Below, in pieces: positions 10,929 through 44,848 of a stretch of 64,000 nt of DNA (position 1 is its first letter; every line of letters starts with the position of its first letter). Origin of the DNA: Halopseudomonas phragmitis (GTDB lineage Bacteria > Pseudomonadota > Gammaproteobacteria > Pseudomonadales > Pseudomonadaceae); assembly GCF_002056295.1 (NCBI RefSeq), contig NZ_CP020100.1, forward strand, positions 1,945,501 through 2,009,500. The letters are read 5' to 3'. The notes below the pieces were generated by a model. The model was not told the origin of the DNA. It searched no databases and saw nothing but the letters and a program-made list of their open reading frames with translations. Position numbers and translations under genes: made by a program.

Positions 10929-11015
10929 TGGTGCCCAGGAGAAGACTCGAACTTCCACGGCCGTAAGGCCACTAGCACCTGAAGCTAGCGTGTCTACCAA
11001 TTTCACCACCTGGGC
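10929..11015 (-). tRNA. tRNA-Leu (anticodon CAG)
   Basis: An 87-base class II tRNA read from the minus strand. The acceptor stem GCCCAGG pairs with CCTGGGC before an encoded CCA; the D arm has GGTAGACACG, the anticodon loop is TTCAGGT (CAG, reading CUG) between CTAGC/GCTAG, the long variable arm is TGGCCTTACGGCCG-like, and the T arm holds GTTCGAGTC. CUG is the main leucine codon in this sequence. The gene has its own promoter and terminator and runs against purA and rnr. Confidence 0.95.
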
Positions 11016-38134: not shown

Positions 38135-38899
38135 TCACTGCGCCCGTAACCACCAATGCAGGTAGCGGCCCAGGTGCTGGTAAGCCGGGTGGCGGCTGTA
38201 GATCAGTTCTTCGCGTATCAGGTCTTCGCTGCTGGCCTGTTGTTGCCAGTGTGGCGGCATGTAGTCATAAAACACCCGGATACCACTAGCCTGCTGTTTG
38301 TGCAGGCCCGCCTGGCTAGCCCACTGCTGGACCTCGCGCGGGTCCAGCGGGTGTTGTGGGGTCAGGCCGCGCTGGCCGACGCCCGCCAACTGTTGGCGCT
38401 CAAGTTTGCGAAACTGGCCCTTGATCAGGTTGCGGTAGATCAGTGCGTCACGGTTGTAGAATGCCAGCGACAGGGCCCCTTGCGGGTTGAGCAGGGCACG
38501 TAGGTGGTGCAGGGCCTGATGTGGGGCGGCCAGCCATTCCAGTACGGCATGACAGATGACCAGGTCGAATGTTTGCCCCTGGGCCGGCAGTTCCTGCAGC
38601 GGCAATGGCCAGTAAGCCGTTGCGGGGGTGCCGGCCGCTTGCAGGCGTTGCTCAGCGGCTGTCAGCATTTCACTGGCGGGCTCGCTGACGGTGACCTGAT
38701 GTCCCTGTGCGGCCAGCCAGGCACTGATGTGGCCAAGCCCGGCCCCTACGTCCAGAATCCGCAGGGGCCGTGCCGGCAGCTCTGCCAGCCACTCCTGCAG
38801 GTCGCGGGTCAGTACGGCCAGACGAATGGCACCCTTGGGGCCAGCATAGATTTTCTGCGCCAGATGACTGCTCAGTTGGTCAAAATAGCGGTCGTCCAT
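38135..38899 (-). CDS. cmoM: tRNA 5-carboxymethoxyuridine methyltransferase CmoM
   Basis: Makes the methyl ester of cmo5U34 in wobble-uridine tRNAs. The 254-residue class I SAM methyltransferase has the nucleotide-binding motif ILDVGAGLGHIS, acidic VSEPASEM, the ICHAVLEWLA motif that closely follows E. coli CmoM, and the C-terminal GIRVFYDYMPP and YQHLGRYLHWW segments. The start ATG at 38899 begins at the conserved RYFD. It stands next to an inverted-repeat element at its 5' end. Confidence 0.9.
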   Translation of the reverse strand: MDDRYFDQLSSHLAQKIYAGPKGAIRLAVLTRDLQEWLAELPARPLRILDVGAGLGHISAWLAAQGHQVTVSEPASEMLTAAEQRLQAAGTPATAYWPLPLQELPAQGQTFDLVICHAVLEWLAAPHQALHHLRALLNPQGALSLAFYNRDALIYRNLIKGQFRKLERQQLAGVGQRGLTPQHPLDPREVQQWASQAGLHKQQASGIRVFYDYMPPHWQQQASSEDLIREELIYSRHPAYQHLGRYLHWWLRAQ

Positions 38900-38910
38900 G
38901 CTTGGCTCCT

Positions 38911-39215
38911 AAGAAAACACTGATTGATTACACGCAAGCTTAGTAGCCCGGTTGTCGCTGACCTGTTCTGGACTGTCGATGCCCTGGTCGAAAATTGCTC
39001 CTGCATTTTCGACACTTCCGCCATCCCTGGCGGTCGGACGGGCATCGTCAAGCCCCCCATGGGTGAGGCAAGCGTTTACGAAGCATGCTTCGTGCGCAGC
39101 CGAACGCCGACCGATCTGTGATCGGTTGGCCGGACCCGGAGGGGGTTCACGGCGTGTCCAGAACAGGTCCGCGACAATTGGGCTAACACCGAAACGATTT
39201 AATCAGTGTTCCTCT
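38911..39215. mobile_element. Palindrome-rich repeat element, long form (MITE-like)
   Basis: An intergenic unit of about 305 bp whose ends are inverted copies of AACACTGATT. The arms continue inward: 38952-38973 and 39156-39177 are 22-bp inverted repeats with one mismatch. The centre holds more hairpins: TCGAAAAT/ATTTTCGA (38987-39011), CCGCCA/TGGCGG (39018-39033), GATGCCC/GGGCATC, and the 16-bp palindrome ACGAAGCATGCTTCGT near 39078. Both ends match the 78-bp element at 44771-44848. No convincing protein is encoded, so it is a non-autonomous element or a structured RNA. It occupies most of the 440-base gap between cmoM and the ppa terminator. Confidence 0.7.
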
Positions 39216-39237
39216 AGCAGGTCTGTTATTCAGGCAT

Positions 39238-39267: not shown

Positions 39268-39331
39268 AGTGCCCTGTCCGCTAGGTTCGTTATCGCTTCA
39301 GAGCGGAGCTGAATGCAGCGGACAGGGCACT
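39268..39331 (-). other. 15-bp perfect inverted repeat in the ppa 3' region
   Basis: AGTGCCCTGTCCGCT (39268-39282) and its exact complement (39317-39331) would form a 15-bp stem with a 34-base loop that itself contains TTCAG/CTGAA. The structure lies between the ppa stop and its terminator, so the ppa mRNA would end in two consecutive hairpins. It is too far from a T-run to be the terminator itself. Confidence 0.7.
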
Positions 39332-39343
39332 GGGGCCGAACGC

Positions 39344-39871
39344 TTATTTTTGATAAGCGTTCACAGCCTTAACGATTTCCGCACGGGCTTCATCAGCGTT
39401 GCCCCAACGGTCGATCTTGACCCATTTGCCGGCTTCCAGATCTTTGTAGTTCTCGAAGAAGTGCTGGATCTGCTGGATCAGCAGTTCAGGCAGGTCGGTG
39501 TATTCCTTGACGTCACGGTACAGCACGCTCAGCTTGTCGTGCGGTACGGCGACCAGCTTGGCATCACCGCCACCATCGTCGGTCATGTGCAGAACGCCTA
39601 CCGGACGTGACCGGATTACCGAACCCGGTGCGACCGGGTAGGGCGTTACCACCAGCACGTCCAGCGGGTCGCCGTCATCGGCCAGGGTATTGGGGATATA
39701 ACCGTAGTTGGCCGGATAGAACATCGGGGTGGCCATGAATCGATCGACGAACAGGGTGCTGCTGTCCTTGTCGATTTCATATTTGATCGGCGCGTGCTGA
39801 GCCGGGATTTCAATGGCGACGTAAATGTCGTTAGGGATGTCCTTGCCTGCGGGGATCTGGTCGTAGCTCAT
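39344..39871 (-). CDS. ppa: Inorganic pyrophosphatase
   Basis: Hydrolyses pyrophosphate to drive biosynthesis. The 175-residue family I enzyme begins with the conserved [12 protein letters not shown], has the signature DGDPLDVLV with the catalytic aspartates (about 66-74), the [14 protein letters not shown] metal site and the KWVKIDRWG end. Length is normal. A near-consensus promoter lies 39 bases upstream. A PPi-dependent phosphofructokinase gene is 4 kb away, which makes the pyrophosphate pool of interest here. Confidence 0.97.
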
Positions 39872-44770: not shown

Positions 44771-44848
44771 AAGGAAATACTGATTAATTGCACGCAAACT
44801 CAGCGCCAATTGGGCCAACACCTAGACTGATTTAATCAGTGTTTCCTT
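44771..44848. mobile_element. 78-bp repeat element, short form (MITE-like)
   Basis: Ends are 17-bp inverted repeats with one mismatch: AAGGAAATACTGATTAA at 44771-44787 and the complement of AAGGAAACACTGATTAA at 44832-44848. The left 25 bases (44779-44803) differ from the long element at 38919-38943 by four transitions only, and the right part (44803-44847) matches 39171-39213. The palindromic centre of the long form is missing. It lies in the pfp-mpl gap, 36 bases before the mpl start, and could affect either promoter. Confidence 0.75.

Follow-up and report, generated by a model that had tools for sequence, protein, structure and literature searches.

Copies of an apparent IS5-family MITE in Halopseudomonas phragmitis carry a widespread hairpin and appear to have been remodelled in place

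Two related repeats lie in the window (the 64,000-nucleotide stretch of the Halopseudomonas phragmitis genome analysed here), and from their sequence both look like copies of a single non-autonomous IS5-family transposon, a miniature element (MITE) with no evident gene product. The centre of the MITE contains a conserved three-way-junction hairpin, which we call K and which also occurs in other species without the MITE. The best explanation overall, and in our judgement a likely one, is that IS5-family MITE copies carrying K have been remodelled in place after insertion. The window elements are best filed as a known kind, an IS5 MITE, and it is the cargo, the widespread hairpin K, that is unusual.

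The two copies are as a preliminary description of this DNA gave them, a long element at 38911-39215 and a short one at 44771-44848. Their left ends correspond over 25 bases with four differences, all of them transitions, their right ends have about 40 bases in common, and within the long element lie inner arms of 22 bp in inverted orientation, together with the 16-bp palindrome ACGAAGCATGCTTCGT. The inverted ends of the MITE read GGRAACACTGATTAAW; with up to two mismatches this motif occurs four times in the window where 0.10 occurrences are expected, so that the end repeats lie beyond chance. From the end motif together with a YTAR rule for the flanking 4-mers, the boundaries are better set as in Table 1, which also gives the 4-mers at both window copies and at the short-copy site of a sister species (G018). 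Both forms fold better than every shuffled sequence (long form, z = -11.7, 0 of 100 shuffles equally good; short form, z = -4.87, 0 of 200 shuffles equally good).

Table 1. Coordinates in the window of the two putative MITE copies, their parts and the adjoining genes
Feature	Position	Strand	Description and basis
Long copy of the putative IS5-family MITE	38913..39213	+	301 bp; 295-bp class between AACACTG ends; from end motif and size classes
Left target duplication of long copy, CTAA (YTAR)	38909..38912		4-mer analysis
Right target duplication of long copy, CTAG (YTAR)	39214..39217		One base off the left one; 4-mer analysis
Left inner arm of hairpin K	38944..38970	+	Fold of long form; arm alignment
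Core K (GACTGT...GTGTC)	38971..39158	+	Modules B and C lie within; from alignments; compact cores modelled as R1
Module B	38986..39035	+	Forms two hairpins on the H1 tip of K; missing in the orthologous G018 copy
Module C	39065..39142	+	Forms several hairpins on the H2 tip of K; contains the palindrome at 39078-39093; missing in the orthologous G018 copy
Right inner arm of hairpin K	39159..39184	+	Fold of long form; arm alignment
Short copy of the same MITE, K deleted	44773..44846	+	Reads inverted in place in G018
Right target duplication of short copy, TTAA	44847..44850		Left flank now AAAA; TTAA/TTAA in G018; 4-mer analysis
Methyltransferase gene	38135..38899	-	Start adjoins the long copy
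Inorganic pyrophosphatase gene	39344..39871	-	End adjoins the long copy

Searches with the ends and with the centre show that both recur across the host genome (G000, one 4.035-Mb contig), which has many matches to the long element, to the short element and to the end motif; solitary end motifs were also scanned for copies. Dozens of copies of the family are present in the genome, and they fall into size classes of about 65-80, 155-168, 243-248 and 295 bp. The copy set used here consists of the distinct copies with at least 300 bp of flank among the loci examined, 36 from the host and 21 from the sister species. Lengths in the host, measured between the AACACTG ends, are 65-80 bp (7 copies), 155-168 bp (20, two of them degenerate), 244-245 bp (6), 295 bp (2) and 336 bp (1, doubtful), and the two size classes originally described are sizes of one family, although there are at least four classes rather than two. 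In alignment all of the classes have the same asymmetric left and right ends, and the build is nested: outer ends enclose inner arms, which enclose a core, which contains two optional modules. No copies were matched in plasmids, phages, viral contigs or E. coli; these searches used BLAST, except for one made with a single exact pattern only.

The sequences flanking the copies point to the IS5 group, whose target is YTAR. Among the 57 copies from the host and sister species, the four bases outside the GGA/TCC ends fit YTAR on the left in 26 and on the right in 37. Both sides fit in 21 copies, and the two 4-mers are identical in 16 of these, compared with a shuffled mean of 5.25 (0 of 10,000 shuffles as high); in the whole set 19 copies have identical 4-mers. 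Because the 57 copies include 14 orthologous pairs we recounted the 36 host copies alone, where 12 have YTAR on both sides and 10 of these are identical (shuffled mean 3.33, 0 of 10,000). Counting against the assignment, YTAR is missing from one or both sides of 36 of the 57 copies. Of 15 loci compared with the site of the long copy, 12, from twelve other species, are free of the element, while the site is filled at one (the sister species, with a 166 form) and not comparable at two; the ends are neither confined to the two places in the window nor lacking an insertion boundary at the empty sites.

DUF772 transposase-domain genes are present in 19 of 37 genomes of the genus, but PF05598, which was searched in the host genome together with PF01797, has no match there or in the sister species. 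A relative (G031, locus L402) carries an IS5 transposase (NF033581 match, E 5.7e-100) between one end identical to the MITE end at 14 of 15 bases and another at 11 of 15, with CTAG outside both. At a locus in a second relative (G033, L400) the ends match at 13 of 15 and 11 of 15 bases and the protein is an IS5-family transposase. Weaker MITE-like ends are found beside DUF772 genes in G033, G025 and G019, and most of the 30 loci scanned have no close end. The earlier suggestion of movement by an unseen transposase holds as to the kind of element, given the ends, the YTAR flanks, the empty sites and the IS5 transposase of the relative, whereas movement itself is something that we infer.

In the MITE the core of K is about 59 nt, GACCGT-H1-GAGC-H2-TTCACGGCGTGTC, lying between the inner arms; RNAalifold places the junction pairs slightly displaced relative to the structure drawn here. 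In other species the core is flanked by arms of quite different sequence and has no MITE ends. A covariance model (R1) finds 37 compact cores in the host genome. Copy numbers from this model are lower bounds, 127 candidates per genome having been scored in the genus and at most 12 per genome in the Gammaproteobacteria, and zero means that none was found. Read in this way, K looks all-or-none in the genus, with at least 7 to 67 copies in each of 28 of the 37 species and none found in the other nine. Although R1 finds K in 66 of the 369 gammaproteobacterial genomes sampled (59 of 272 genera), it would be a structured repeat missing from Rfam: there is no gathering-level Rfam 15 match at the window element or in 10 K loci, and at E up to 5 there are only chance-level matches to K. 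Marinimicrobium, Rheinheimera, Shewanella, Plasticicumulans, Aquisalimonas and Marinobacter are among the matches listed for an exact K pattern, which number at least 100 stretches, and metagenome-assembled genomes (MAGs) among them include Chromatiales, Methylococcaceae and Nitrococcus. The literature searched, in which subscription journals are thinly represented, holds no description of K.

The arms of K tend to change as pairs. We distinguished 169 compact cores, 41 with MITE-like arms and 128 others. The arms of the non-MITE copies, mostly about 15-30 bp long, differ between loci and yet are complementary. The 128 form 69 arm clusters, 65 of which score at least 8, with arms mostly of 19-28 bp (range 11-31), compared with 2 of 5,000 random positions; the search picks the left end that gives the best arm, a slight bias towards pairing that has no counterpart in the random control (highest score 16). 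Thirteen copies in one Chromatiales genome have related 27-bp arms, in which 64 changes affect both sides, 2 affect one side and 4 cells are unpaired. Matched 1-base indels inflate such column counts, so we also counted without the two rows that have them (L292 and L305), giving 46, 2 and 4 respectively. The covariation score of the 31 copies whose arms are unrelated is 0.747, compared with 0.156 for shuffled arms and at most 0.142 for slid pairings; rows of the arm alignment (A6) were preselected for an arm score of at least 8. Purine-pyrimidine flips and double transitions are about equally common in the related copies (163 and 177, in 11 rows), and the corresponding 3013 and 1523 in the 31 unrelated-arm copies are uninformative, since unrelated arms give 2:1 anyway.

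Eighteen comparisons of orthologous K copies, not all independent (L189, L190 and L198 share members, as do L201, L206 and L357), contain 60 double arm changes and 25 single ones. Restricting the count to the 13 comparisons that have fewer than 12 core differences leaves 27 double and 20 single changes; about 5 and 64 would be expected if the two sides changed independently at that rate. The remaining five, whose cores are unequal or have at least 12 differences, account for 33 of the double changes and look like replacement of the whole interior. These counts favour either arm-to-arm copying or strong selection that keeps the arms paired, and we consider DNA template switching the best account of the concerted change, for which selection and recombination offer partial alternatives. 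Arm homogenisation and spacer inversion by template switching are described in PMC8604942, and the creation and maintenance of RNA hairpins by this process in PMC8794818. As a sole process template switching is countered by the points that selection for pairing could also yield double changes and that single changes and G.T states occur. Derivation of the arms from the target, the element copying its flank, is not favoured: two K copies of the sister species are missing, arms included, at the host sites, so that in these two cases the arms are part of the element and do not derive from its flank. At a third site (L179 in comparison with L455) the two species have different hairpins.

Mismatches within the arms are unequal between strands. 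On the K strand of the non-MITE copies there are 109 GT and 16 AC, 20 GG and 1 CC, and 36 AG and 8 CT mismatches, and cluster representatives have 52 GT and 7 AC. A strand-neutral process would give equal numbers; therefore the K-strand fold, as RNA or as single-stranded DNA, either matters or biases the persistence of mismatches. The proposal that the long copy could carry a structured RNA is sustained in its structural part, by conserved structure, strong covariation and the one-strand bias, while the acting molecule may be RNA or single-stranded DNA.

The same bias, the conserved three-way junction with its covarying H1 and the two-hairpin domains found at the H1 tip in several genera would all suit a functional structured RNA, for example an element of mRNA 3' ends or stability or a small RNA, held under selection for its fold, with compensatory arm changes and the MITE as passenger or vehicle. 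There is also a slight excess of copies lying sense to the upstream gene (70 versus 45 of 157), which is a hint drawn from the approximate calls of a simple longest-ORF caller, with 20 copies lacking neighbours and 22 lying inside ORFs. We regard a functional RNA as possible but doubtful. It has no Rfam match, many copies per genome and scattered presence in the genus look selfish, and stepwise compensation is disfavoured by the scarcity of G.U states and by flips about as frequent as double transitions.

Under a distinctly unlikely reading K would be a large REPIN-like element, a hairpin of single-stranded DNA that a Y1 (HUH) transposase moves, with inverted K pairs as the mobile unit. The strand-specific fold would suit single-stranded DNA, many copies of K do occur as inverted pairs with a spacer, and Y1 genes are present in 25 of the 28 K-bearing species. 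However, they are also present in seven of the nine species without K, the arms have no conserved sequence, and none of 30 Y1 loci examined (94,065 bases) has K within about 1.5 kb. At this resolution a RAYT mobiliser for K is not supported, and that no K mobiliser was identified counts against our preferred explanation too, in which K rides in remodelled MITE copies.

Remodelling is seen most directly where the host and sister species have copies at the same place. Among 14 orthologous MITE loci, five have changed size class and four read inverted between collinear flanks. At the site of the long copy the sister species has the 166 form, in which two separate segments, module B (50 bp) and module C (78 bp), are absent; the outer parts of the element are nearly unchanged. 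In three orthologous pairs the short copy is the longer copy of the sister minus 87, 172 or 99 bp, the junctions having 3-4-bp direct repeats (GGT, ACAG and TCAG) and the aligned bases matching at 79 of 80, 72 of 73 and, more weakly, 56 of 68. These pairs bear out the view that the short form is a deletion derivative, and the short copy in the window fits a 99-bp TCAG-type deletion of the medium form (62 of 68), not specifically of the 305-bp form. That the two sizes are independent elements, alike at their ends through common IS5 ancestry and neither derived from the other, is very improbable; short, medium and long copies do coexist and the window short copy is short in both species, but all classes share the same asymmetric ends, and at the three sites a single microhomology-bounded segment accounts for the difference.

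The short copy in the window is among the four loci that read inverted in place. Inversion is clearly supported by alignment scores at L010/L089, L022/L097 and L033/L123. It is weakly supported at L034/L093, where the lengths differ, the element aligns poorly both ways (-6.5 versus -31.5) and the call rests on the flanks. A further inverted locus, L017/L352, has a different core type.

A plausible scenario is that the MITE was spread by an IS5 transposase that recognised these ends and would no longer be encoded by this genome. The K strand would be the folding strand, and DNA polymerase switching templates between the inverted arms could copy one arm onto the other and sometimes flip the interior. 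Slippage across the palindrome would delete the interior to give short forms, and long forms probably arise when modules B and C are brought in by ectopic recombination between copies. PMC8604942 describes spacer inversions of a few bases, but the inverted interiors of the present copies span tens of bases to more than 100 bp, and end-to-end recombination or re-insertion at the same palindromic target may therefore fit better. A broader proposal, which we offer tentatively and as something short of probable, is that K represents an undescribed element spread across the class Gammaproteobacteria, in which the junction is fixed and the arms are free and need only to pair, being continually rewritten from each other by template switching. 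As a selfish repeat it would keep its single-strand fold while its sequence varied freely, could ride in IS5 MITEs and would gain or lose whole hairpin domains at its tips.

The window elements resemble IS5-family MITEs in being short and multi-copy, with no evident gene product, inverted ends, a 4-bp YTAR duplication and a transposase-bearing relative in the genus; they differ in the nested conserved hairpin with optional modules and in the size and orientation differences between orthologs. REP sequences and REPINs, associated with RAYT (TnpA-REP) proteins, are multi-copy palindromes, often in inverted pairs, of which one strand folds. K shares each of these properties but differs in its three-way junction and hypervariable arms, and no K lies beside the 30 Y1 genes examined. 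The mitochondria of sponges have repetitive hairpin-forming elements that spread into intergenic regions and become divergent in both sequence and structure (PMC2800124). Fungal double-hairpin elements behave likewise. Both of these are organellar, whereas K is bacterial and has a conserved junction core with locus-specific self-complementary arms. The Pae-1 family of Pseudomonas aeruginosa, an 84-bp intergenic family with a pair of adjacent stem-loops (PMC2267715), is a possible relative of K, compared by description and not by sequence. R0, R2 and other intergenic repeats of Pseudomonas fluorescens are MITE-like, with inverted repeats around a variable core (PMC2718517); their likeness to the present family is one of general description.

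The present family offers many natural bacterial orthologs in which matched arm change, inversion and slippage deletion are seen side by side, and it is a test bed for the survival and change of long palindromes. Template switching between inverted arms appears to be well studied in reporters and for short repeats.

Among the various other features of K, we note that module B is found at the same H1 tip but in the opposite direction in L065 (G015) and L067 (G029), as if inserted twice or flipped, and that Chromatiales and Marinimicrobium have a different two-hairpin domain at the H1 tip. The inverted pairs of K are mostly minus then plus, with the order plus then minus in L069 and L072, and the spacer is tens to a few hundred bp (L191, L192, L183, L316, L251 and L189). 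Ends resembling GTCCGG/CCGGAC enclose the pair at two loci of Marinimicrobium. In the MAG records L247, L254, L258, L260, L263, L265, L267, L284, L287, L290 and L306, K is no more than about 100 bases away from the end of a contig, which suggests that K causes assembly breaks.

Two other features of the window may be mentioned. The sole Rfam gathering-level match is one tRNA gene at 10932-11015 on the minus strand. A second hairpin, with perfect 15-bp arms (AGTGCCCTGTCCGCT / AGCGGACAGGGCACT), lies at 39268-39331 after the ppa terminator. It is absent from the 12 aligned element-free sites, and G019 (L367) has a similar hairpin at the same place with another arm sequence.
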